The position numbers were made by a program, and so were the translations under genes. Below are positions 15,056-36,742 of a DNA stretch of 37,651 bases, piece after piece. Position 1 is the first letter of the stretch; every line of letters begins with the position of its first letter. Below the pieces are notes generated by a model. That model was given only the letters and a program-made list of their open reading frames with translations. It had not been told where the DNA came from and made no database searches. The stretch covers positions 1 through 37,651 of the forward strand of contig JAGQIK010000056.1 in assembly GCA_020431405.1 (NCBI GenBank), given 5' to 3'. The stretch comes from Myxococcales bacterium (GTDB lineage: Bacteria > Myxococcota_A > Polyangia > GCA-2747355).

Positions 15056-16408
15056 CTAACGGCACCAGCTCGGCGGGCTGGCATAGCTCGCGGCGGCGCA
15101 GCAGCGCCTGATGGCGCCGTGCATCGCGGCGGTCGAGGGGCCGCACAGCCGCTCGGATAGGCAAAGCGCCATCGCCGCGTTGGCTCGCGTGGCGTGCTTC
15201 ATCATGCCGCTGGTCGCTGCCGGCGTTCGGCCCGCCTCGGCGCGACAGACCGTCAGCGCGTAGCGCAGCCGTCGCGCCGCCGAGACGGCCGGCGGCGGCA
15301 CGCGCTGCGGCTGCGGGTAGAGATGCACCCGCAGCAGCTTGGCCTTGCTGCGGATCGCCGCCAGCACGCGCTGGTCGCGAGCTGCGAGCGCAACGTTCGC
15401 CAGCGACTTGGCCGCCGCCCGGCGCGCCGCGAAGCCGGACGCGTCGTCGCGCAGCACCGCCAGCAGCGCCGCGTGTTGGCTGGCGTTGGCCGCACCACCC
15501 ACCGCCGCGATCGCGTCGAGCACGGTGCGCATACGCGAGGTGTTCTGCCAGCGCCCGTCGCGCGGGATCTGCGCCAGCAGCGCCAACAGCTCGGGCCGGG
15601 CCGCCGCCGCGGTCTTGCCGATCTTGCCCACCGCCCAGGCGATCCGCACGCGGCCATCGACGAGCCCGCGTCCGAGCAGGCCGCGCAGCGCGCTGACCGC
15701 CGGCGCCGCGCCCGCACCGAGCGCTGCCAAGGCGCTCACGGCGGCGCTCCGATGGCGCGCGTCGGTCAACAGTGGCACCAGCGCTGTGGCCACCACGGCG
15801 CCGCGGCCGCGCGCGGCGCGCACGGCGTCGATGGCGCGCCCGCACAGTGGGTGCGTCTGCACGAGCAGCGGCCGCAAGGCGAGCAGCCCAGCGCGGACGT
15901 ACGGCGCGAGCTCGGCGTAGCGCCCGCAGGTGGTCCGCTCGCGCGCAGCGACCTCGGCCAGCGTGCCGATGGCCGCGCTGGCGCCGCGCTGATCGCGCGC
16001 GCCGATGGCCGCGACGAGCCGCCGGTGCAGCGCGCGCCAGCCGGCGGCCGAGCCCCTGCCGGTGAGGCGGCTGCACAGCAGCTTGGTCATGACACTTGGC
16101 AGCTGCAGCGCGCCGCGCCGCTTCATCGCGCGCAGCACGCGTCGCGCCGCGTGCAGGCCGTACCCTTCGAGCTGATCTTCGGCGGCAAGCTGCAGGCACA
16201 GGTTGCGCCGCTGCCGGCGGTGCACGATCGCGCCGATCATCTGCGGCACCGCCGCGCGCCCACGCCGGCGCCACTTTCTACGCGCGCGCGCGGCCTCGGC
16301 GCGCTCCGAGTCGGTGCAAAACTGTCCGCCGCCGTGCGCGACGCTGCTCGTGGCGACGGTCACGGCGAGCGCGGCGCCGGCGATCCAGGCGGCTGAGCTT
16401 CGAGTCAT
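15056..16408 (-). CDS. Exported HEAT-like repeat protein (450 aa)
   Basis: The signal peptide (residues 1-26, ending SSVAHG) leads into an all-helical, Ala/Leu/Arg-rich protein. Residues about 150-370 show HEAT/armadillo-like pairs, such as ALVPLLTDARHRSAAVSALA, SALRGLLGRGLVDGRVRIAW, AVGKIGKTAAAARPELLALL and LAVLRDDASGFAARRAAAKS. HEAT repeats are protein-binding scaffolds. The C-terminal 60 residues carry seven Cys (for example CLSERLCGP, IRRCCAAAS and a final WCR), probably disulfide-bonded. The ATG at 16408 has an AGGA site upstream. Its binding partner is not predictable. Confidence 0.7.
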   Translation of the reverse strand: MTRSSAAWIAGAALAVTVATSSVAHGGGQFCTDSERAEAARARRKWRRRGRAAVPQMIGAIVHRRQRRNLCLQLAAEDQLEGYGLHAARRVLRAMKRRGALQLPSVMTKLLCSRLTGRGSAAGWRALHRRLVAAIGARDQRGASAAIGTLAEVAARERTTCGRYAELAPYVRAGLLALRPLLVQTHPLCGRAIDAVRAARGRGAVVATALVPLLTDARHRSAAVSALAALGAGAAPAVSALRGLLGRGLVDGRVRIAWAVGKIGKTAAAARPELLALLAQIPRDGRWQNTSRMRTVLDAIAAVGGAANASQHAALLAVLRDDASGFAARRAAAKSLANVALAARDQRVLAAIRSKAKLLRVHLYPQPQRVPPPAVSAARRLRYALTVCRAEAGRTPAATSGMMKHATRANAAMALCLSERLCGPSTAAMHGAIRRCCAAASYASPPSWCR

Positions 16409-18752: not shown

Positions 18753-18875
18753 CAGAGCTCCCTCCTGCCCGTTGAACCTCGGCTGGAAGCAACTGCTGAT
18801 CCAGCGCGCCGTCTACGTTCAAGGCGGCGAATGTGCAGTCTCGCGTCGCCCAGCGAGGCAGACCACGCCAAGGCC

Positions 18876-18887
18876 GTCCCATGGGAC
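18876..18887. promoter_or_regulatory. 12-bp perfect palindrome in a divergent promoter region
   Basis: GTCCCATGGGAC lies in the 216-bp gap between the frameshifted lipoprotein gene (minus, ATG 18752) and the glycerophosphodiesterase-like gene (plus, ATG 18969). It could be an operator for either gene, but a 12-bp palindrome is weak evidence in such GC-rich DNA. Confidence 0.3.
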
Positions 18888-18968
18888 AACGAGCGCGCAT
18901 CGCCTCTGTTTTCGGGCGATTGCGCGCTGGTACACGCGCTGCAACTGGCGTCCTCGATGGAGGGGCCG

Positions 18969-21170
18969 ATGAGCACGCGCGCGATCTCGAGAGCGATGAC
19001 GGTGATTGTGTTGGCTGCCGCGACGGCAGGCTGCGGCGGGCTCGAGCCGGCGCAGAGCGACTCGCCACCGCCGACGACGACCAAGCGCGCCGCCGCGCTG
19101 AGCACGCCGGTCTGCGGCAGCAACGGCCCGCGCGACTTTCTCGTCATCGGCCACAAGGGCGCACCCTACGATCGCTGCGAGAACACCATCGACAGCTTCC
19201 GCACGGCCCTCGCGCAGGGCGCCAACGCCATCGAGCTCGACCTGTCACTCACCTCCGACGGCCGCGTGGTGGTCTGGCACGACTGGTCGCCCGACTCGCC
19301 GGTGGCGCTGGCCCGCCAGACCGCGAGCGGCTACGAGCTGTGTCGGCCCTACGTGCCCGACGTGTTCTCCAGTCACCGCAAACCCGTCGATCAGCTCAGC
19401 CTCTCCGAGCTGAGGCAGCACTACGGCTACACGCGTCAAAGCTTCGCCTGCAGCCTCAGCCCGTTCTGCACGGTGCACAAGACCGCCGACGTGATCCCGA
19501 CCATCGAGGACGTGGTGGGTCTGACCGCGCCCGATCGGCGCCTGCGCTACCTGTTCTTCGACGTCAAGGTCCCGTCCGGTCAGCCGCAGCTCGCCGTGCG
19601 CATCCTCGAGGTGACGGTCGCCGCGCTGCAGGCGCGCGGGCTTTTGCACAAGGCGGTGTTCATGAGCCCGCACGCGGCGGTTTACACCGCCATGCGCGCG
19701 CGCGCCGGCCAGCTCGCGCCCTTGTACCCTGGCGCGCCGATCCGCGTCTCCTTCGACCGCGAGGTGGCGCAGATCGTGATCGCCAACTATGCGGATTGGT
19801 CGAGCGTGACGCCCAACACGGCGTCGACGCCGCCCAACCGATTCGCCCCCATCGGCCAGCCGGCGCTGCCGGCGGCTTCGGCGCTGCAGTTCTTCACGCT
19901 CGTCGATCGCGAGATCGGCCTGCGCGACGCGCACAACGCTGGGCGCGCGGCCAACGACAAGCTCAAGCTCATCGCCTGGACCATCGATTCGAGCACCGAC
20001 CTGTGCACGCTCATCGGCAAGGGCGTCGACGGCATCCTCACCAACTATCCGGCGCGCCTCGCCGGCATCGTCGCGCCGTGGTTTCCGAGCTCGCCCAAGC
20101 ACGGCTGCCCGATCGGCACGCTCAACGAGTACAGCGAATGTGTCGCCAGCTGCTCGCCCACCACGACCGAAAACGCCGGCTTCTGCGGGCACACCTGCGA
20201 CCCCAACCTGCCCAGCTACGGGCCGCAGATCGAGGTCTGTGATGGCATCGACAACGACTGCGACGGACAGGTCGACGAGGGCTACACCGACAGCGACGGC
20301 GACGGCACACCCGACTGCACCGATCCGGACGACGACGGCGACGGCATCGCCGACGTCGCCGACAACTGCCCGACGGTGGCCAACCGCGGGCAAGAAGACC
20401 GCGACGGCGACGGCATCGGCGACGCGTGCGATTCGTGCCCCGACGACCCGGGCAACGACAGCGACAACGACGGCATCTGCGGCGACGTCGACAACTGTCC
20501 GACGCGCTGGAACCGAGGGCAGCAGGACAACGACGGTGACGGCATCGGCGACGCCTGCGACCCCGACGACGACAACGACGGCTTGCCCGACGTCGCCGAC
20601 AACTGCCCGCTGCTCGCCACCAAGAACACCAACGACGCCGACGGCGACGGCGTGGGCGACGCGTGCGACAACTGCCCCAACACGCCCAATCCCGACCAGG
20701 CCAACCACGACACGGATCCGCAGGGCGACGCCTGCGACCTCGACGACGACAACGACGGCGTGCCCGACACCAAAGACAACTGCCCGTGGGTCCCCAACCC
20801 CGACCAGAAGAACAGCGGCGGCGGCCCCGAAGGCGACGCCTGCACGAAGCTGACCTCGTGGCCCGCGATCCGCACCGCGCTCGACGCGCGCGTCGAGGCG
20901 CTCGCCTTGCTGATGGCCAAGCAGGGGCTCGGCTGGCCCGTCGGCTGGGAGCCGCCAACGCCCTGCGAGGTGTGCCAGACCACGCCGTGGGATCGCTTCT
21001 ACCAGGCCGGGCTGCTCGCCGCGGGGCACTATCTCGGCGCCCACAAGCTCAGCGAGGCGCTCGCCGCTTCCGATGTGCTCGCCGTGCTGCTCGTCGACGG
21101 CGCCGTGCGCCACAACGACGCCACGCGCTACATCGACGAGCGCTGGGGCGAAAAGCAGACGAGCAAGTAG
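18969..21170 (+). CDS. Lipoprotein fusing a glycerophosphodiester phosphodiesterase domain with MopE-like and thrombospondin type 3 repeats
   Basis: A 733-residue protein with signal peptide ending TAG-C (Cys22). Residues about 57-370 form a GDPD-type TIM barrel: [18 protein letters not shown] (His62, Glu71, Asn72), [19 protein letters not shown] (Glu89, Asp91) and the terminal IAWTID...[10 protein letters not shown]. The usual HRG is HKG here. A Cys-rich joint leads to a MopE-like motif [18 protein letters not shown] (423-439). About five thrombospondin type 3 units (D-x-D-x-D-G-x-x-D-x-x-D-N-C-P, 441-625) follow and should bind calcium. A helical domain of about 105 residues ends the protein. 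GGAGGGG upstream supports the ATG at 18969. Expected activity is hydrolysis of glycerophosphodiesters outside the cytoplasm. Confidence 0.88.
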
Positions 21171-23260: not shown

Positions 23261-23309
23261 CTGGCGCTCGTCGCCACCCCTGCGCTGCGTTCTGCTCTGG
23301 CTGAACGTG

Positions 23310-24740
23310 ATGAAGCACGCGCGGCGCCCCTACCTCGTTATCACGACACTTCTCGTCGCCTGTGGCTGCACGGCCAAGCTCGACGCGATCAAGCCGCAGG
23401 TGGCGCTGCCGCAGCGCTTTTCGGGCGGCGGCGCGGCCAAGCTGGGGGCGCGCTGGTGGCGAAGCTTCAACGATCCGGAGCTCACGCGGCTTGTCGAGCG
23501 CGCGCTGAGCAAGAGCTTCTCGCTGCGCGCGGCTTGGGCGCGCGTGGCGCAGGCGCGGGCGGTGGCCAAGCGCGAGGGCGCTGCGCTCTACCCGAGCCTC
23601 TCCGTGCAGGCCTCGGGCGGCGGCTTGATCTCGCGCGGACGCGTCATCGCCAGCACCTCGCTGGTCAACGTCTCGCCCTTCGACATCACCGGCCGCGAGG
23701 ACATCTCGCTCGGGCTGGCGGCCAGCTACGAGCTCGACCTGTGGGGCAAGCTGCGCAGCACGCGCGACGCGGCCAAGCTCGATCTGCGCGCCAGCGAGCA
23801 CGATCTGATGGCCGCGGCGATCTCGCTCTCGGCCGAGGTCGCCATCGCCTGGTATCGCCGCGTGGAGCAGGCGGCGCAGCTGGCGCTGCTCGAGACGCAG
23901 CTTCGCACCAACGAGCGCACCCTCGAGCTGGTCACCGTCAGCTGGCAGCGCGGCGCGGTGCGCGCCGAAGATGTCTTTCGCCAGCGCCAGCTCACCGAGG
24001 CCGTGCGCGCGCAGAAGGCGACGGTACAGGCGGCGCTCGCCGTGCAGTCGCACCGCCTCGCCGTGCTCGTCGGCGCCGTGCCCACCGCGGTCGTCGCACC
24101 CGCCGGCGCCAAGACGCTCGTCAAGCTGCCGCCGCTGCCGCGCACCGGCGTGCCGTCGAAGCTGATCACGCGCCGGCCGGACTTGGCGCGTCTTCACGCG
24201 CGCGTGCTCGCCGCTGATCGGCGCTTCGCCGCGGCCGTCGCCGATCGCTTGCCGTCGCTGTCGCTCTCGGCGGGCATCCTCACCAGCGGCCGCGCCGTCG
24301 ACCTGTTCGCCAGCTGGATCGGAAACCTCGCCGCCTCGATCTTCGCGCCGATCCTCGACGGCGGCCGGCGCAAGGCCGAGTCGGAGCGCTTCAAGGCGCA
24401 GCGGCTCGAGCTGCGCCAGCAGTACACGCAGCAGGTGCTCGAGGCGCTGCGCGAGGTGGAAGACGCGTTGATCCGCGAGGTCAAGCAGCGCCAGCTTTTG
24501 CGCAGCATCGCCACGCAGCTGAAGCTCGCCAAGCACGTCATCGAGCGCGTGCACGACAGCTACGTAAACGGCGTGGGTGACTACCTGCGCGTGCTCGACG
24601 CCTACGCGACGTACCAGCAGCTGCAGCGCAACGAGCTCACGGCGCGCCGCGAGCTGATCGAGATCCGCATCGGCCTTTGCCGCGCGCTGAGCGGCGGCTG
24701 GAAGCTCGAGGCGCCGCGCGCCGAGGGGAAACGGTCGTGA
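23310..24740 (+). CDS. RND efflux outer-membrane lipoprotein channel, TolC/NodT type
   Basis: Outer-membrane factor of a tripartite efflux pump, 476 residues from the ATG at 23310 (a GTG sits one codon earlier). The signal peptide ends LLVACGC, so Cys18 or Cys20 would be lipidated as in the OprM/NodT group. Family motifs are WWRSFNDPELTRLVERAL, the helical EREGAALYPSLSV-like segment, SYELDLWGKLRSTRDAA, TRRPDLARLHARVLAADRRF, and DGGRRKAESERFKAQRL in the second half, ending VGDYLRVLDAYATYQQLQRN. It is the first gene of the efflux operon. Its stop TGA overlaps the GTG of the adaptor gene (GTGA), indicating translational coupling. Confidence 0.92.
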   Translation: MKHARRPYLVITTLLVACGCTAKLDAIKPQVALPQRFSGGGAAKLGARWWRSFNDPELTRLVERALSKSFSLRAAWARVAQARAVAKREGAALYPSLSVQASGGGLISRGRVIASTSLVNVSPFDITGREDISLGLAASYELDLWGKLRSTRDAAKLDLRASEHDLMAAAISLSAEVAIAWYRRVEQAAQLALLETQLRTNERTLELVTVSWQRGAVRAEDVFRQRQLTEAVRAQKATVQAALAVQSHRLAVLVGAVPTAVVAPAGAKTLVKLPPLPRTGVPSKLITRRPDLARLHARVLAADRRFAAAVADRLPSLSLSAGILTSGRAVDLFASWIGNLAASIFAPILDGGRRKAESERFKAQRLELRQQYTQQVLEALREVEDALIREVKQRQLLRSIATQLKLAKHVIERVHDSYVNGVGDYLRVLDAYATYQQLQRNELTARRELIEIRIGLCRALSGGWKLEAPRAEGKRS

Positions 24741-26046
24741 GCACGCCTTTGCCCCCCAAAGAAGACGCGCCGTCGCCGCCGCCCGGCGACGAGGTGTCGC
24801 CGCCGCGCGCCAAAGAAGACGCGTCGCCCGAGATCGATCTCGAAGCGCCAGCGCGCACCGTGGGCGCCAAGCTGCGCGTGGCGCTCGGCGTGCTGCTGAT
24901 CGTCGGCGCGGCGGGCGGCATCGGCTACTGGCTGATGCAGACCGGCCCGCGCGCGCGCAAGAAGCGCCGGCGCGCCAAGGTCACGTGGCTGGTGCACACT
25001 CAGCCGGTCAAGGTCGCCGAGCACCACGCGCGCATCATCGCGCGCGGCACGGTGATGGCGGCGCGCACGGTCGACCTGCGCGCGCGCGTCGCCGGCAGCG
25101 TCGTTTGGCTCAGCAAGGAGATGCTGCCCGGCGGGCGCTTCAAGAAGGGTGACGTCATCGCGCGGCTCGACCCGCGCGACTACACACTCGCTATCGAGCA
25201 GCGCCGCGCCGCCGTGGTGCAGGCGCGCACCGCGCTGGCGCTCGAGCGGGGCCAGCAGGCCATCGCGCGCCGCGGCTACAAGCTGCTTGGCAAGGCCATC
25301 GCCGAGAAAGACCGCGGCCTGGTGCTGCGCAAGCCGCAGCTCGACAACGCGCGCGCCACGCTGCAGGCGGCCGAAGCGCTGCTCGCCCAGGCGCGGCTCG
25401 ACCTCTCGCGCACCGTGATCCGCGCGCCCTTCAACGCGGCGATCAAGACGCGCCAGGTCAGCGTCGGCACGCAGGTCACGGCGCTGACGAGCCTCGGCGA
25501 GCTGGTCGGCACCGACAGCTACTGGGTCGAGCTGACCGTGCCGGTGCACCAGCTGCGCTTCTTGTCGATCCCGGGCCGCGACGGCGAGACGGGCTCGCCG
25601 GCGCGCGTCTATCACAGCTCGGCCTGGGGCCGCGGCGCCTACCGCGACGCGCGCATCCTGCGCCTCGCCTCGGACCTCGAGGCCAAAGGCCGCATGGCGC
25701 GCCTGCTGCTCGCCATCGACGACCCGCTGCTCTTGGCCGCCAAGAAGCCGCTCGCCGGCGCGCCGCGGCGGCTGCTCATCGGCGCCTACGTGCGCGCCGA
25801 GATCCGCGGCGCATCGCTCGGCCGCGTGGCGATGATCCCGGCGCGCGCGCTGCGCGACGGCGACACGGTGTGGCTCGTCTCGCCGCAAAAGACGCTGCTG
25901 ATGCGGCGCGTGCGCGTGCTGCTGCGCGACCAAGACCACGTCTACGTGCACGCGGCCGATCTACGCGCCGGCGACACGCTGGTCGACAGCGACATCACGT
26001 CGCCGGTGGAAGGCATGCCGCTGCGCCTCGCTGCCGCCAAGAAGCC

Positions 26047-26050
<4 letters not shown>
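24737..26050 (+). CDS. RND efflux periplasmic adaptor (membrane fusion protein)
   Basis: Adaptor that links the inner-membrane pump to the outer-membrane channel, 437 residues from GTG 24737. An N-terminal Pro/Glu-rich cytoplasmic tail of about 40 residues (with PPKEDA and RAKEDA repeats) precedes one transmembrane helix at about 45-67 and a basic RARKKRRRAK stretch. Then come the first lipoyl half (RARVAGSVVWLSKEMLPGGRFKKGDVIARLD), an alpha-helical hairpin (about 150-215), the second lipoyl half (LSRTVIRAPFNAAIKTRQVSVGTQV), a beta-barrel and a membrane-proximal domain. The RAPF motif is highly characteristic. Because the anchor is a transmembrane helix, no lipid Cys is needed. The stop overlaps the next start (ATGA). 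Confidence 0.92.
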
Positions 26051-29141
<3,091 letters not shown>

Positions 29142-29142
<1 letters not shown>

Positions 29143-29888
29143 TGATGGTCAGAAGCCAAGCGCCCGCCTCGGATGGCGCGCTGCTGATCGTCGATGACGA
29201 TCGCGAGCTGTGCGCGATGCTCGTCGAGTACCTCGAGGCCGAAGGCGAGCGCGCGGTGTGCGAGCACGACGGCGCGCGCGGTCTGGTCGCGGCGCGCTCG
29301 GGGGCGCACCCGCTGGTGGTGCTCGACGTGATGCTGCCGGAAAGCTCCGGCTTCGAGGTGCTGGCGTCGCTGCGCGAGGGCGGCGAGCGCGTGCCGGTGA
29401 TCATGCTCACCGCGCGCGGCGACGACGGCGACAAGATCCGCGGGCTCGAGGCCGGCGCCGATGACTATCTGGCCAAGCCGTTCAACCCGCGCGAGCTGCT
29501 GGCGCGCATCCGCGCGGTGCTGCGCCGCAGCGGCGAGGGCGCGGGCGAGAGCGACGGCGAGGGCGCGGGCGACGGGCTCTCGATCGACGCCGAGCGCCGC
29601 GTCGCCTATCGCGACGGCCAGCGCCTGGCGCTCACCGGCGTCGAGCTCGAGATGCTGCGGCTGCTCAGCGCGCGAACAGGCGAGGTCGTCTCGCGCGACG
29701 CGCTCAGCGAGCAAGCGCTGGGCCGCGCCTTCGATCCGCGCGATCGCAGCGTGGACATCCACATCAGCAGCCTGCGCCGCAAGCTTCACGCGCCAGGCGA
29801 CGACGGCTCGCCGATCCGCACGGTGCGCGGTGAAGGCTACCTGCTGTTGCCGGTGCGCGCTGCTGCGCGGCGCGGCGGCAGGAGCTGA
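29142..29888 (+). CDS. OmpR-family response regulator, CpxR-like
   Basis: Transcription factor of 248 residues. The receiver domain has the acidic pair in LLIVDDD (about 16-20), the phosphorylation site Asp62 in VVLDVMLPESSG, Thr in IMLTARG and Lys112 in LAKPFNPREL. A short Gly/Glu linker with two EGAG(E/D) units follows. The winged-helix DNA-binding domain (about 145-240) contains LTGVELEMLRLL, VDIHISSLRRKL and RTVRGEGYLL. The first ATG overlaps the pump stop by one base; a second ATG follows directly. It is likely the regulator of this pump operon through the direct repeat at 23245-23260. The partner kinase gene starts 10 bp downstream. Confidence 0.93.
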
Positions 29889-29898
29889 GCCGAAGGCC

Positions 29899-31290
29899 AT
29901 GCGACGTCTGTTCGCGCAGATCTTTCTGTGGTTCGCCGGTGCGCTGACGCTGCTGCTCGTCGTCAGCTACGCGGTCAACAACGTCTGGCGCACGGCGAGC
30001 CCGATCAAGCTCGTCGACCGCGGCCCCTCGTCACTCTACGCCGCGCTGGCCGTCGAAGCCTACGAGCGCGGCGGCCGCGGCGAGCTCGACACGGCGCTGT
30101 CGCGCATCGAGAAGCTCACCGGCGCCAAGGCCTATCTCGTCGATCGCGGCGGCCGCGAGCTTTCCGGTCGCACGCTGCCGGCGCGCGTGGCCGAGGTGGC
30201 GCGCTCGGTGCTGCGCGAGGGCGCGGGCGAGCGGCGCTTCGTCGGTCAGAAGCGCTTCTTCGCGCGACCGACGCGCGGCAAGGGCGGCGCGCGCTACGTC
30301 TACGTCAATGTGGCGCCGCCTCAGCGCGGCCTGCTGCGCGTGGTGCTGCCCGAGCACGCCGAGAAGGTGCTCTTGGTGTTGGCGATCTTGCTCGGGGCGT
30401 TGGTCTGTTACCTGCTGGCGCGCCACCTGAGCGCGCCGATCAGCACGCTGCGGCGCGCGACGCAGCGGCTCGCCGAAGGCGATCTGAGCGCGCGTGTCGA
30501 CACCAGCGCGCGTCGTCGCGTGGCCGAGATCGCCGAGCTGGCACACGACTTCGATCGCATGGCCGAGCGCGTCGAGTCGCTGGTGGGCGCGCAGCGCGAG
30601 CTCTTGCAGAACGTCTCGCACGAGCTGCGCTCGCCGCTGGCGCGCCTGCGGGTGGCGCTCGAGCTGGCCCGCCAGCGCGGCGGCGCCGGCGACGAGGCCA
30701 AGGCCGCCGAGGCGCTCGACCGCATCGAGCGCGAGACCGAGCGGCTAGACCAGCTGATCGGCCTGCTGCTCACGCTGAGCCGACTCGAGTCGCGCACCGA
30801 GACGCTGGCGCGCGAGCGCGTCGACATCGGCGCCTTGCTGCGCGAGGTGGTGGCCGACGCGCGCTACGAGCTTCGCGGCACGCGCAGCATCGCCATCGAG
30901 GTCGAGCACGCCAAGGGCGCTGACGCCGAGGCGCTCGTCGTACGTGGCGCGCCGTCGCTTCTGCGTTCGGCGCTCGAAAACGTGGTGCGCAACGCGCTGC
31001 GCTACACCGACGACGGCACGGAGGTCAGCGTGCGCGTCGAGGACCGCGGCGCGCTGCACGTCTGCGTGCGCGACCATGGTCCGGGCGTGCCCGAAGACGA
31101 GCTCGAGTCGATCTTCGCGCCCTTCGTGCGCGTCAGCGCGGCGCGCGAGCGCGACAGCGGCGGCGCGGGGCTCGGCCTCGCGGTGACGCGTCGAGCCATC
31201 GAAGCGCACGGCGGCGAGGTCTCGGCGCGCAACGCGCGAGGCGGTGGTCTGGCCGTCGAGATCGTGCTGCCGCGGGGCGCGCTGACGTAG
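29899..31290 (+). CDS. Sensor histidine kinase, CpxA-like
   Basis: Inner-membrane sensor of 463 residues, partner of the preceding regulator. The first membrane helix is at about 8-27, the periplasmic sensor at about 28-155 and the second helix at about 157-174. A HAMP domain follows, containing HLSAPISTLRRATQRLAEGD. The dimerisation/phosphoacceptor motif NVSHELRSPLARLRVALELA has His241, very close to CpxA/EnvZ-type H-boxes. The ATPase domain shows the N-box ENVVRNALRYT (360-370), DHGPGVP (392-398) and GGAGLGLAVT (421-430). The start ATG lies 10 bp after the regulator stop. Envelope stress or pump substrates are likely signals by analogy with CpxA, but this is inference. Confidence 0.93.
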   Translation: MRRLFAQIFLWFAGALTLLLVVSYAVNNVWRTASPIKLVDRGPSSLYAALAVEAYERGGRGELDTALSRIEKLTGAKAYLVDRGGRELSGRTLPARVAEVARSVLREGAGERRFVGQKRFFARPTRGKGGARYVYVNVAPPQRGLLRVVLPEHAEKVLLVLAILLGALVCYLLARHLSAPISTLRRATQRLAEGDLSARVDTSARRRVAEIAELAHDFDRMAERVESLVGAQRELLQNVSHELRSPLARLRVALELARQRGGAGDEAKAAEALDRIERETERLDQLIGLLLTLSRLESRTETLARERVDIGALLREVVADARYELRGTRSIAIEVEHAKGADAEALVVRGAPSLLRSALENVVRNALRYTDDGTEVSVRVEDRGALHVCVRDHGPGVPEDELESIFAPFVRVSAARERDSGGAGLGLAVTRRAIEAHGGEVSARNARGGGLAVEIVLPRGALT

Positions 31291-31414: not shown

Positions 31415-32107
31415 ATGAACAAGCTATCCATGTCGCTCGTGCTGCTGTGTGTCTTGGTGCTCGCGAGCTGTCAGAGCGAAGGTGATCACGCTGCCTGCGA
31501 AGCGGGGTCGCGCTGCGACGACGCCAGGGCGTCGACGTCGACGCGCGATGGGGGCGCTTCGGCCGACGCGAGCTTGGCGAACGCGAGCGCGTCGTGCGAG
31601 CGCTACCTGTCGTGTCTTCTGGTGGTCACGCCGCAGGGCTACGCCGGCGCGCTGCAGCTTTATGGCGCGCAGTCGGCGTGCTGGCAGAGCGCGCAGACGA
31701 CGGCCAACTGCTCGAAGGCGTGCGACGCGGCGTTCGACCAGATCGCCAGCGGCTGCCGCTGCGAGGGCACGGTCTGCAGCGCGCCGCCGCCGCCGCCGCT
31801 TCACGACGCCTGCGTCAACGACTTCGCGGGTAAGCCGCCCAGCTCCTACTACCAGGAGCAGGTCGCGCTCGACTGTGCGATCAGCTGCAGCGGCAGCAGC
31901 GGCGCCGACTGCTGGCGCACGTGCTTCGAGGCCAAGAACCAGCTCTCCAAAGACTGCGGCACCTGCTTCATGCAGCACGCTAGCTGCGTGCTGAGCTCGT
32001 GTGCCGTGTGCAAGACGCAGCGCACATCGCCAGACTGCACGAGCTGCGTCGCCAACCGCTGCACGCAGGCGCTCGAAACGTGCAGCGGTCTTGTCTACGG
32101 CGCCTGA
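31415..32107 (+). CDS. Cys-rich lipoprotein (230 aa)
   Basis: Function unknown. The signal peptide ends VLAS-C with Cys19 lipidated. The mature part has 24 further Cys. A Ser/Thr/Ala/Asp-rich linker (residues 30-55) is followed by a Cys-rich domain with spaced pairs such as CSKACDAAFDQIASGCRCEG, CAISC, CWRTCFEAK, CGTCFMQHASC and CTSCVANRC. The even number of Cys and their regular C-x(2-3)-C spacing suggest a fully disulfide-bonded extracytoplasmic domain. AGAGGAG upstream supports the ATG at 31415. It follows the kinase gene by 124 bp and has its own likely promoter region. Confidence 0.75.
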   Translation: MNKLSMSLVLLCVLVLASCQSEGDHAACEAGSRCDDARASTSTRDGGASADASLANASASCERYLSCLLVVTPQGYAGALQLYGAQSACWQSAQTTANCSKACDAAFDQIASGCRCEGTVCSAPPPPPLHDACVNDFAGKPPSSYYQEQVALDCAISCSGSSGADCWRTCFEAKNQLSKDCGTCFMQHASCVLSSCAVCKTQRTSPDCTSCVANRCTQALETCSGLVYGA

Positions 32108-32180
32108 GCGGTGTGTCTCGCGTCACACGAAGGCGCCGAATATTTTTGGGGAAGCTAGCGGCGCGGATCCCGTAAGTGAC

Positions 32181-32195: not shown

Positions 32196-35100
32196 ATGAT
32201 CCAAGTGAGCTCGCCGCGCCCGCGTTTGCCGCGGTGCCAGCGAATCGTGCGCCTCGCGCCAGCCGTGCTGCTGTCGTTGCCGCTGCTGCTGCCGCTCGCC
32301 GGCTGCGCCACCACCTCCGCGACGACAGGCCCATCGGGTGCGACCTGCAAGGACGGGCCGAGCTGTCTCGCGCGCGTCAACACGCTGATCGCGCGCGGCG
32401 CGCGTCAAGAAGCCTACCTGCTCGCCGCGCGTACGGCCGCCACCGACCGCAAGGCGTCGACCTGGTTCGCGCTGCGCAAGCTCGCATACGAGCCCATGCG
32501 CGAGCGCGCCGCGCTGGTGCGGCGACTGCAGGCGGGCTGTCGCGAGGGCGGGACGAAGGCGCCGTGGACGTGTGCCGGGCTCGGCGTGCTCTTGCAGCAC
32601 CGCCGCGCCACCAGCGCCGCTGCGCTCAGCCCGCTCGAGCGCGCCTGCAAGCAGCGCAACGACTACGCCTGCACCTACCTGGCGAGCATGCGCGGGCGCG
32701 GCGCGGGTGTGCCCTTCGACCCCGCCGCCGCCAAGCGGCTGCTCGAGGGCGCCTGCGGGCGCGGCTACCTGCGCGCCTGCAGCAGCCTCGGCGTGCTCTA
32801 TCGTCACGGTGAGGGTGTGCCGCGCGACATCGCGCGGGCGCGCATGCTCTATCGGCGCGCCTGCGCCGGCGGTGATCTCAAAGGCTGCTTCGAGGACGCG
32901 ATGCTGTACGCCTTCGCGCTCGGCGTGAAGCGCGACTTCGGGCGCGCCTTGAGCACGTCGCAGCGGCTCTGCCAGCAAGGCTACGTGCGCGCCTGCAACT
33001 TCGCCGGCACGGCCTATGGGTTGGGCCGCGGTGTGACGCGCGACACGCGGCGCGCGGCCAAGCTCGAAGCGCGCGGCTGCCGCGGCGGCTTCATCGACGG
33101 CTGCGTGCGACTGGCGTCCTACTATCTCGACGGCCGCGGGGTCGCCGCGGACGCCAAGAAGGCTTTCGAGCTGGCCAGCACTGCTTGTCGCGCCAACGCC
33201 AACCGCGGCTGCATGATGCTGGCGCGCCTGCGCTTCGCCGGCCGCGGCTGCAAGCGCGACCTACCCAAGGCGGCCTCGCTGTTTCGCACCGCGTGTCGCG
33301 GCGCCGCTCAGAGCGCCTGCGCCGCCCTCGGCGAGATGACCTTGCACGGCTTCGGCGTGAAGCGTGCGCCCGCGCGCGGGATCGCCCTGCTGCAGTCGGC
33401 CTGCGACAAGCAGCACGCCAACGCCTGCGAGCAGCTGGCGTACGTCTACGGCCGCGGCCGCGGCGTCAAGGCCGATCCCGCCAAGGCGCTCGCCGTGCTG
33501 CGTCGCGCGTGCAGCAACAAGACCTACGAGGCTTGCGTGACGCTCGGTGCGCACCGCTTCCATGGCCGCTACGGTCCGCGTGACCGACCCCGAGCGGTGG
33601 CGCTCTATCGCACGGCGTGCGAGCACGGCGCCTACCTTGGCTGCTTCGCGCTCGCGGCCTTGTACTTCAGTGGCGTTGGCGTCGCGCGTGACGACGCCAA
33701 GGCGCAGGCGCTCACCGCGAAGGCCTGCGACGGCGACGTGGCGCAGGCCTGTTTTTCGCTCGGGCTGCGCTACGTCAACGGCCAAGGCGTGGCGCGCGAC
33801 GACCGCCGCGCGCTGTCGCTCTTCGGCCGCGCCTGCGGCGGCGGCACGGCGAGAGCCTGCAGCGCGCTGGCCATGATGTACGCCACGGCGCGCGGCACGG
33901 CGCGCGATCTGCGGCGCGCGGCGCCCCTCTTCGAGAAGGCCTGCCGCGGCGGCGACCACGCCGCCTGCACGCGATTGGGCATCATGCTCCAGGAAGATCA
34001 CAGAAAAGCAGGCGTGCCGCATGACCCGCGGCGGGCCGTCACGCTCTTCGAGAAGGGCTGCAAAGGCGGCGACAGCTGGGGCTGCCTGCGCCTCGCCGCG
34101 GCGCTCGCCGACGGTGCCGGCGTGACGCGCGACGACAAGCGCGCCGCCAAGCTCTTCGCCAAGGCCTGCGAGGCGAAGAACCACTGGGGCTGCAACGGGC
34201 TCGGGCGGCTGACGCTTCACGGCCGCGGCGTGCCGCGCGACTTGACGCGCGCCCACGCGCTGTTCGAGCGCGGCTGCAAGGCGGGCAATGGACAGAGCTG
34301 TCTGTGGCTCGGCCGCATGCTCGCCGACGGCCACGGCGTCAAAGCCGATGGCGCGCGGGCGCTCGAGATCTTTCGCAAGGCCTGCCGCGCAGGTCAGGTC
34401 GTTGGCTGCGACGCGGCGGCCACGATGCTGCGCAGCGGAAAGCAGGTGGCGCGCGACTACGCCGCGGCCGCCGCGATCTATCGCGCCGGCTGCAAGGCCA
34501 AGATGGCGGCGATGTGCTTCGGCCTCGGTCAGATGCACGAGCTCGGTCACGGCGTGAGCCGCGATCTGGCCGCCGCCTACGCGCTCTACCGCACCTCGTG
34601 TCAGCACGGGCACATGCCTGGCTGCTACGTGCTGGCGCTGGCCCACGGCGACGGGCGCCACGGCATCGCGCGCGATCCGGCGCGCGCCGTCGCGCTGTTT
34701 CGCCGCAGCTGCGAGGGCAAGCTGGCGCAGGGCTGCTACGCCCTGTCGCTGCTGTCCAAGGACAAGACCAAAGCGCACGCGCTGCAGCGTCGCGCGTGCG
34801 ACGGCGGCTACGCCGACGCCTGCCTGGTGCTCGGTCGCGCCGCCTTCCAAAGCAGCAAGCCGAGCAGCTACCAGCGCGCGGCCAAGCGCTTCGCGCGCGC
34901 TTGCGCGCTCGGCTCGGCGACCGCCTGCGCGCATCTCGGCCGGCTCTACGTCGCCGGCGGCGGCGTCAAGCGCGACTATCGCAAGGCGCGCGAGCTGCTC
35001 GAAAAAGGCTGCAAGCGCGACGCGAGCGGCTGCGTCGGGCTGGGCTATCTCTATCAGGAAGGCTACGGCGTCAAGCGCGACTACAGCAAGGCAGGCGCGC

Positions 35101-36017
35101 TCTATCAGCGCGCCTGCGACGCCAACCACATGCCCGGCTGCGTCTATCTCGGGGGTCTGTACGGCAACGGCTCGGGCGTGCGCAAGAACCTCGCGCGCGC
35201 GCTCGAGTACTATCGCAAGGCCTGCGACTGGGGTAACGGCTTCGGCTGCCGCGCGCTCGGCATCGCCTTCGGGCGCGGCGCCGGCGTCAAGCGCGACGTC
35301 GGCGAAGCGGCGCTGCGGCTGCGCAAGGGCTGCAAGCTCGGCGACGCGCAGAGCTGTCGCGAGCTCGGCGGCTTCGCGCTCAACGGCGTCGGCGTCGCGC
35401 GCGACCCTCGCCGCGCGGCGCGCTTGTTTCGACGCGCCTGCGCCGCGGGCGACGCCGATGGCTGCAACGATCTCGGCGCGCTCTACAGCGATGGCCGCGG
35501 CGTGGCGCGCGACGACCGCCGCGCGGCCGGGCATTACCTCAAGGCCTGCAACGGCGGAAACGCCGTCGGGTGCACCAACTTCGCCGTCTCGCTGGCCGAG
35601 GGGCGCGGCGTCAAACGCCAGCCGCGCCGCGCGCGCGTCCTGCTGCGCGCGACATGCGACAAGGGCGCCGCGGGCGCCTGCCACCGGCTCGGCATGATGT
35701 ACGTGCGTGGGCTCGGCGGTCCTCAGAAAGCGGTCGAGGGCAACAAGCTGCTGCTGCACGCCTGCCAGAACCGGCGCCTGCTCGGCTGCGTGAGCCTCGG
35801 CCTGAGCTACCTGCGCGGCCGCGGGGTGAGCAAAGATCCGCGCCGCGCGATGGCGCTCTTCGACAAAGCCTGTCGTGGCAGGCAGATGCACGGCTGCGTG
35901 AACGTCGCCTTGCTGCTGCGCGCGCGCCGCGACAAGCGCGCACACGCGCGGGCGGCCAAGCTGCTCGAGCGTGCCTGCGCGGGCGGCCTCAAATCGGCCT
36001 GCGGCGTGGCGCCCTGA
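32196..36017 (+). CDS. Giant Sel1/Hcp-like repeat lipoprotein (1273 aa)
   Basis: Solenoid lipoprotein with signal peptide ending PLAG-C (residues 28-37 region). After an N-terminal region of about 110 residues come 32 consecutive Sel1-type helical repeats of about 36 residues, consensus A-C-x7-C-x-x-L-G-x-x-Y-x-x-G-x-G-V-x-R-D-x-x-R-A-x-x-L-F-x-K. Of these, 31 have exactly C-x7-C and one (GCKRDASGC) has C-x6-C. This Cys pair is the signature of Helicobacter Hcp proteins, where each repeat is stapled by one disulfide. Here at least 64 Cys would form 32 staples, several times more than the usual Hcp size. One repeat (SCEGKLAQGCYALSLLSKDK) is short. Such scaffolds bind proteins or cell-wall ligands; the target is unknown. 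Confidence 0.88.
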   Translation: MIQVSSPRPRLPRCQRIVRLAPAVLLSLPLLLPLAGCATTSATTGPSGATCKDGPSCLARVNTLIARGARQEAYLLAARTAATDRKASTWFALRKLAYEPMRERAALVRRLQAGCREGGTKAPWTCAGLGVLLQHRRATSAAALSPLERACKQRNDYACTYLASMRGRGAGVPFDPAAAKRLLEGACGRGYLRACSSLGVLYRHGEGVPRDIARARMLYRRACAGGDLKGCFEDAMLYAFALGVKRDFGRALSTSQRLCQQGYVRACNFAGTAYGLGRGVTRDTRRAAKLEARGCRGGFIDGCVRLASYYLDGRGVAADAKKAFELASTACRANANRGCMMLARLRFAGRGCKRDLPKAASLFRTACRGAAQSACAALGEMTLHGFGVKRAPARGIALLQSACDKQHANACEQLAYVYGRGRGVKADPAKALAVLRRACSNKTYEACVTLGAHRFHGRYGPRDRPRAVALYRTACEHGAYLGCFALAALYFSGVGVARDDAKAQALTAKACDGDVAQACFSLGLRYVNGQGVARDDRRALSLFGRACGGGTARACSALAMMYATARGTARDLRRAAPLFEKACRGGDHAACTRLGIMLQEDHRKAGVPHDPRRAVTLFEKGCKGGDSWGCLRLAAALADGAGVTRDDKRAAKLFAKACEAKNHWGCNGLGRLTLHGRGVPRDLTRAHALFERGCKAGNGQSCLWLGRMLADGHGVKADGARALEIFRKACRAGQVVGCDAAATMLRSGKQVARDYAAAAAIYRAGCKAKMAAMCFGLGQMHELGHGVSRDLAAAYALYRTSCQHGHMPGCYVLALAHGDGRHGIARDPARAVALFRRSCEGKLAQGCYALSLLSKDKTKAHALQRRACDGGYADACLVLGRAAFQSSKPSSYQRAAKRFARACALGSATACAHLGRLYVAGGGVKRDYRKARELLEKGCKRDASGCVGLGYLYQEGYGVKRDYSKAGALYQRACDANHMPGCVYLGGLYGNGSGVRKNLARALEYYRKACDWGNGFGCRALGIAFGRGAGVKRDVGEAALRLRKGCKLGDAQSCRELGGFALNGVGVARDPRRAARLFRRACAAGDADGCNDLGALYSDGRGVARDDRRAAGHYLKACNGGNAVGCTNFAVSLAEGRGVKRQPRRARVLLRATCDKGAAGACHRLGMMYVRGLGGPQKAVEGNKLLLHACQNRRLLGCVSLGLSYLRGRGVSKDPRRAMALFDKACRGRQMHGCVNVALLLRARRDKRAHARAAKLLERACAGGLKSACGVAP

Positions 36018-36062
36018 GGCTTGGGCTATACTCGCCGGCGCTCGCGAGGCGGAAGCCCTCGA

Positions 36063-36075
36063 GCCGACGTTCGTA
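36063..36075 (+). promoter_or_regulatory. 13-bp motif upstream of a lipoprotein gene, copy 2
   Basis: Same 13-mer as at 31376-31388, 25 bases before the ATG at 36101. A possible -10 hexamer TATACT lies further upstream at 36027-36032, without a clear -35. Confidence 0.4.
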
Positions 36076-36100
36076 TGCATACACCTTAGGAGGCTTGCAC

Positions 36101-36742
36101 ATGAAGAGACGCGAACAGGTATCGCGACTAGTCGCCGCGCTAGCGCTCTTGCTGGTGCCGGGCTGTTCGAGCGATGACGGCCCGACCAAGGCGCAGAGCA
36201 CCATCGGCCCGGCCGGCGGCAGCGTAACCGTCGGTAAAGCCAGCGTCGTGATCCCGCAAGGGGCGACGGGCACCGACCGCGAGATCGGTATCGAGAAGCT
36301 CGGCTCGGGCTGGCCCGATGCGCCCGCGGGTCTCGAGCTCGCCGGTGACGTCTACGCCTTCACGCCGCACGGCATCGGCTTCGCATCGCCGGTGACCGTC
36401 ACCATCCCGGTCAATGCCACGACCTCGGACGTCAAGCTCTACAAGTACCAGCCGGGCGAGTCGGTGTGGACCGAGGTGTCAGGCGCGACGGTCAACGCCA
36501 GCGACTCGACCATCACCGGGCTGACCTCGAGCTTCTCCGGTTTCTGCGGCATGAAGACCGCGAAGCCGTCGGGCGGCGAGCCCACGCCCGACATGGGCCC
36601 CAGCGGCGACAAAGGCACGCCCGAGAAAGACATGGGCCAGTGTAAGGGCGTCGAGATGCAGTGCGACACCAGCGCCGAGTGCTGCACCGGCCTCGAGTGC
36701 ATCGACATCAGCGGCTACAAGGGCTGCTTCACGCCTAGCTAG
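36101..36742 (+). CDS. ZU5-like domain lipoprotein with a C-terminal Cys knot-like motif (213 aa)
   Basis: The signal peptide ends VPG-C (Cys22). Residues about 33-150 resemble a ZU5-like beta-sandwich (IGPAGGSVTVGKASVVIPQG, then VYAFTPHGIGFASPVTVTIP, then VKLYKYQPGESVWTEV), a module common in bacterial surface proteins. A Pro/Gly/Asp linker follows. The last 35 residues contain six Cys in the order C-x6-C-x6-CC-x4-C-x7-C, similar to small disulfide-knot peptides. A near-ideal ribosome site (TTAGGAGG) stands before the ATG. The stop codon overlaps the first hairpin of composite repeat copy B, which probably ends transcription. The role is likely structural or adhesive, but unproven. Confidence 0.78.
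   Translation: MKRREQVSRLVAALALLLVPGCSSDDGPTKAQSTIGPAGGSVTVGKASVVIPQGATGTDREIGIEKLGSGWPDAPAGLELAGDVYAFTPHGIGFASPVTVTIPVNATTSDVKLYKYQPGESVWTEVSGATVNASDSTITGLTSSFSGFCGMKTAKPSGGEPTPDMGPSGDKGTPEKDMGQCKGVEMQCDTSAECCTGLECIDISGYKGCFTPS

Follow-up and report, generated by a model that had tools for sequence, protein, structure and literature searches.

A long cysteine-paired Sel1 repeat lipoprotein encoded in a myxobacterial genome and its predicted disulfide-stapled solenoid fold

The window, which is the whole stretch of 37,651 nucleotides of contig JAGQIK010000056.1 (Myxococcales bacterium, assembly GCA_020431405.1) analyzed in this study, contains a gene for a Sel1/Hcp-type repeat lipoprotein, in the following called the Sel1 lipoprotein. 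Its open reading frame begins with an ATG at position 32196, ends with a stop codon at position 36017 and encodes 1273 aa, with a GC content by codon position of 0.71/0.58/0.90 that is consistent with a coding frame. The gene, its parts and its neighbors are located as follows:

23307-24740, plus strand: outer-membrane efflux protein, upstream of the Sel1 gene
25870-29142, plus strand: RND pump, upstream of the Sel1 gene
29142-31290, plus strand: response regulator and histidine kinase, upstream of the Sel1 gene
31415-32107, plus strand: putative lipoprotein (230 aa, 26 Cys) close ahead of the Sel1 gene, no Pfam match
32196-36017, plus strand: Sel1/Hcp-type repeat lipoprotein gene (P0001), 1273 aa, from open reading frame, translation and Pfam Sel1 match
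32196-32306, plus strand: signal peptide and lipobox LAGC, read by eye, with residue 37 as the likely lipidated Cys
32307-32645, plus strand: irregular N-terminal part (residues 38-150), containing two irregular pairs, C51-x5-C57 and C115-x10-C126
32646-36002, plus strand: 32 Cys-paired Sel1 repeats, residues 151-1269, from Cys spacing and the register of the AlphaFold2 model
33249-33251, plus strand: lone Cys352 in repeat column 13, where Val is the usual residue, from the repeat alignment
35010-35033, plus strand: sole C-x6-C pair, C939/C946, from the Cys positions
36101-36742: lipoprotein of 213 aa with no Pfam match, downstream of the Sel1 gene

The intergenic gaps from the histidine kinase through the Sel1 gene to the downstream lipoprotein comprise 124, 88 and 83 bases, and a weak terminator-like site ahead of the Sel1 gene (32120-32136) is within chance expectation. 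The analysis gave no support for a functional link between the Sel1 lipoprotein and the efflux system, although such a link is conceivable. Among the other features of the window, 18831-21170 (plus strand) encodes a glycerophosphodiester phosphodiesterase, an acidic protein that contains five thrombospondin type 3 stretches. A tRNA-Gly called by ARAGORN at 16179-16257 (plus strand) is probably false, as it has no Rfam match at gathering and lies inside open frames, and the 939-aa open frame antisense to the array (33261-36080, minus strand) is probably a by-product of the GC-rich in-phase repeats.

The Sel1 lipoprotein contains 71 Cys, 64 of which make up 32 regular pairs, namely 31 C-x7-C and one C-x6-C. 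Open reading frame, translation and Cys count thereby confirm the composition given for 32196-36017 in the initial annotation. Successive pairs are mostly 36 residues apart (range 29-39), and the 31 C-x7-C pairs compare with a mean of 3.8 and a maximum of 10 in 2000 shuffles of the protein. Four further Cys form the two irregular pairs ahead of the array (C51/C57 and C115/C126), and C14 in the signal peptide, C37 in the lipobox and C352 are unpaired. Haem binding by the Sel1 lipoprotein was rejected, since the sequence does not contain any haem-binding motif CxxCH.

Across the 31 regular repeats the two Cys are the only invariant columns, followed by an Ala present in 29/31. Pairwise identity among the repeats averages 32% at the protein level (maximum 56%) and 48% at the DNA level (maximum 64%), and the mean identity to the repeats of other arrays is 30%. 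With protein identities around 32% and a DNA maximum of 64%, a recent expansion of the whole array appears unlikely from the sequence, and the divergence would fit an array of old age, in line with what had been proposed at the outset. Arrays that did expand recently exist elsewhere, with mean repeat identities of 67% (L112), 59% (L142) and 59% (L110).

At the N-terminus, a hydrophobic stretch is followed by the LAGC lipobox, and from this reading by eye Cys37 is likely the lipidated residue. The mature protein would comprise 1237 aa with a computed mass of 131 kDa and a computed pI of 10.0. The irregular part between lipobox and array is predicted to add further helices at lower confidence (AlphaFold2, residues 38-340, 10 relatives). 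Its N-cap motif is similar to those of three other Sel1 proteins (L126, L148 and L171), and a regular expression for this motif matched 5/112 arrays.

A Pfam search assigned the protein to Sel1 (PF08238) as sole match, with 400 bits and an E-value of 9.3e-124 at a gathering cut-off of 30.7 bits, and phmmer identified Helicobacter HcpC (1ouv, E 5e-47) as the closest solved structure, the Cys of HcpC being aligned to Cys of the Sel1 lipoprotein. For Hcp proteins, seven residues between the paired Cys are described (PMC4792463), and this spacing is found in 31/32 repeats; in the AlphaFold2 model, moreover, the Cys are positioned to connect each repeat at its end with the beginning of the following one. 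Together with the LAGC lipobox read from the sequence, these results support the original designation as a Sel1/Hcp-type lipoprotein. The Hcp-type reading is thus right as far as computation goes, and the Sel1 lipoprotein is a long member of a known and widespread kind of protein. Scores for more specific families stayed below the respective cut-offs, with 93.8 bits compared with 700 for AlgK (NF038194) and, among the NCBIfam equivalogs, 62.6 compared with 330 bits for MotX, 38 compared with 450 bits for ExoR and 32.5 compared with 350 bits for MerG, so that these identities were rejected.

An AlphaFold2 model of residues 38-1237, built with 25 relatives and covering 31 of the 32 regular pairs (one pair lies beyond it), shows an all-helical solenoid of 67 helices with a mean pLDDT of 86.5, which drops below 60 near model residues 831-870. 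The pTM of 0.48 leaves the overall shape of the superhelix uncertain. The Cys register is highly uniform: in 28/31 modeled pairs helix B ends one residue after the first Cys, a three-residue loop follows, and the second Cys occupies the fourth position of the next helix A; the remaining three pairs show a one-residue shift in one or two of these measures. C126 of the N-terminal part is residue 5 of its helix and resembles the regular pairs, and C57 occupies the fourth position of the first helix, C51 lying directly ahead. In HcpC and HcpB, the disulfides are described as lying where helix B ends and the following helix A begins (PMC3851747). The shared register matches this site, and the model therefore agrees with stapling in terms of register, as distinct from S-S distance; on this basis each repeat probably contains a disulfide. 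Alignment of the model with VIA-align supports the relationship to HcpC (1ouv, Z 26.5, rmsd 4.5, 264/265 residues, 35% identity), and the fold list further contains 4bwr (Z 27.2), 5jkp (Z 15.9), 5jjo (Z 15.3) and 3e4b (Z 13.9). The SLR protein c5321 of E. coli is described as having 11 SLR units, a length of about 115 Angstrom and 7-8 units and 60-65 Angstrom per turn (PMC3851747). Scaled to about 33 repeats and assuming the same superhelix, these dimensions would give the Sel1 lipoprotein a length of 25-35 nm.

With a threshold of E 1e-25, related arrays are present in at least 152/289 genomes of the window's class, the true number being possibly higher since no more than two candidates per genome were scored; related arrays are hence common in this class. 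When the ORFs listed for selected loci of this class are compared, with each record counted once, the window array contains the most C-x7-C pairs (31), followed by arrays with 24, 23, 22, 22, 20 and fewer, several of them in the range of 17-24. In the named collection of 79 loci the median is 11 and the maximum 33, the latter found in Sulfurospirillum sp. W8 (L138:1610-5281), which encodes a basic 1224-aa Sel1 protein with a signal peptide. The description of the array as far longer than typical Hcp proteins consequently holds in comparison with HcpC (1ouv, chain of 273 aa), but its length is not unique. A loss of the Cys pairs was not observed among paralogues and relatives, 14 Cys columns being invariant in 16/16 sequences of alignment A1; conservation across relatives thus concerns the Cys pair itself.

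An orthologous array was sought by colinearity against 120 arrays, a set that includes duplicates (e.g., L031 = L126, L102 = L187, L108 = L171), and none of the 120 beat all 200 permutations; for two arrays, 1-2 of the 200 permutations were as good or better. Control pairs of other arrays yielded z values of 5.0, 8.3, 10.7 and 14.6. The colinearity search thus gave no support for the proposed maintenance of this particular array. Since the matches to the flanking RND pump and histidine kinase in two genomes of the same family were 47% or weaker, synteny did not pin an orthologous locus in these genomes either. A DNA pattern for two Cys-paired repeats was uninformative in 377 genomes, as the reversed control was equally frequent or more so. 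In the literature, covered by titles and abstract openings, no report of long Cys-paired Sel1 arrays in myxobacteria was found.

Other domain combinations were observed among the collected loci. In two loci from Acidobacteriaceae MAGs (L164:309-3689 and L110:205-2730), a caspase domain (Peptidase_C14) is fused to long Cys-paired Sel1 arrays; both loci scanned were positive for this domain, and L135, L139, L140, L144, L151 and L152 resemble them in the stretches inspected. In the own genome (contig C274, L070:609-4613), a protein kinase domain is fused to a Cys-paired Sel1 array with 10 C-x7-C.

Next to the Cys pairs, the arrays from the window's family of genomes are characterized by a strong positive charge, a trait that is new here and was absent from the initial annotation. 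The repeats of 16 arrays from this family carry a mean charge per residue of +0.105 (lowest +0.054), compared with -0.008 (sd 0.032) for 127 other ORFs. Broken down by element, the window repeats carry +2.23 in helix B, +0.84 in the A-B loop and +0.23 in helix A, the corresponding values of 1617 other repeats being +0.51, -0.33 and -0.13. Because helix 1 of c5321 is described as facing the concave side (PMC3851747), the basic face of the window array would, by analogy, be the outer one. As a control, 53 further ORFs from the same genome were selected by codon-position GC; their mean was +0.022, with six ORFs at +0.09 or more, so that part of the basic charge reflects a general lean of the genome; the nine Sel1 ORFs of this genome average +0.095. 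The idea that longer arrays are more basic was rejected over all arrays (rho 0.04, p 0.62); among the non-family arrays alone, rho was 0.20 (p 0.02). Long basic arrays outside the window's family are L138, L042 and L146.

A mature pI of 10.0, a family mean far above that of other ORFs and a charge excess that sits on helix B and the A-B loop next to a near-neutral helix A might all indicate that the main job of the rod is to bind an anionic polymer by its basic convex face. It would then serve as spacer or glue for peptidoglycan, LPS, exopolysaccharide or extracellular DNA and not as a protein scaffold. However, the other ORFs of the genome are somewhat basic too, charge does not track array length over all arrays and three long arrays outside the family share this property, and we therefore regard such a tether as unlikely. 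Decidedly doubtful is the further picture of lineage-specific outer-membrane lipoproteins in which dozens of stapled Sel1 repeats form rods of 25-35 nm, near-neutral in the groove and continuously basic on the outer face, and that tether or space the envelope by binding an anionic polymer along their length.

Concerning the location of the protein, Lys at position +2 and Ala at position +7 are described as marks of inner-membrane and matrix lipoproteins, respectively, in Myxococcus xanthus (PMC3222651). In the Sel1 lipoprotein these positions are occupied by Ala (+2) and Thr (+7), in agreement with neither rule, which makes the outer membrane the best guess, by analogy with a rule taken from another myxobacterium. 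An extension outward from the outer membrane, as a surface or matrix protein for cell-cell or prey contact, would be compatible with the lipobox, with the description of H. pylori Hcp proteins as secreted (PMC3608669) and with the suitability that long stapled rods may have for surface display. Nevertheless, the matrix signal described for Myxococcus, Ala +7 (PMC3222651), is missing and none of the window proteins scanned was recognised as the product of a gene for lipoprotein surface export, so that this kind of exposure does not appear probable.

Taken together, the computed fold, Cys register, kinship and charge and the lipobox read from the sequence are best explained by an outer-membrane, disulfide-stapled lipoprotein that would act as a protein-binding scaffold, a reading to which we assign a probability of about 0.6. 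The Sel1 lipoprotein would be secreted and then anchored, most likely in the outer membrane, and its mature chain would fold into a single right-handed Sel1 (SLR) superhelix of about 33-34 repeats. As in HcpB/HcpC, each inter-repeat junction would have a disulfide that connects helix B, at its end, with the beginning of the following helix A and that is presumably formed after export by DsbA/VKOR-type enzymes of the cell; VKOR matches were found at 2 places and DsbA-like matches at 13 places of the own genome. Staples of this kind would set the angle between repeats, and the chain could therefore serve as an extended and stable scaffold, with partner proteins bound along the groove, while the basic outer face may hold it to anionic polymers of the envelope. 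An SLR protein has been described as a demonstrated protein-binding envelope regulator in Pseudomonas (PMC10746161). For the Sel1 lipoprotein, the analysis turned up neither a partner gene nor a phenotype.

The scaffold reading is also favored over two activities assigned to other proteins of this fold. According to the titles of the respective papers, HcpA and HcpB reportedly bind penicillin or have beta-lactamase activity, and the Sel1 lipoprotein shares fold and Cys pattern with HcpB/HcpC; since a chain of 32 repeats is not needed for such an activity, we consider this analogy very improbable. A role as immunity protein of a toxin system is the most far-fetched of all. The Sel1 immunity proteins PA5087/PA5088 do appear in the fold list (5jkp and 5jjo), but in a Pfam scan of the 16 other window ORFs none was recognised as an effector or type VI gene, and the neighbors are an efflux system and a two-component system.

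The Sel1 lipoprotein extends the Cys-stapled Sel1 rod from the 273-residue chain of HcpC to about 1200 residues and into another phylum. As a natural stapled solenoid of 30-plus repeats, it would lend itself to studying how the stiffness of helical-repeat proteins depends on disulfides, and the strongly basic, presumably outer face shared by arrays of one family of genomes is a trait that can be measured.

In comparison with known systems, HcpB (1klx) and HcpC (1ouv) share with the window protein the Sel1 repeats and the C-x7-C pairs, with Cys that align to its own, whereas HcpC has a short chain and differs from the window protein with its 32 pairs, lipobox, strong positive charge and different phylum. 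AlgK-type TPR/Sel1 proteins are likewise helical-repeat lipoproteins (3e4b); the low AlgK score of the window protein and the lack of recognised polysaccharide genes among the window ORFs scanned set it apart from them. The E. coli protein c5321 (4bwr) forms an SLR superhelix as well, but is described as having no disulfides, with Trp replacing their effect (PMC3851747). Three Sel1 proteins from Sandaracinaceae/Polyangia (L126, L148 and L171) possess the C-x6-C N-cap motif and 15-17 C-x7-C, yet they have about half the repeats, their N-termini are without the LAGC lipobox and they are absent from the twelve most basic arrays. L138 of Sulfurospirillum sp. W8 is likewise a basic Cys-paired Sel1 array of comparable length, while its signal peptide is without an evident lipobox and it lies outside the ten best colinear matches to the window array.
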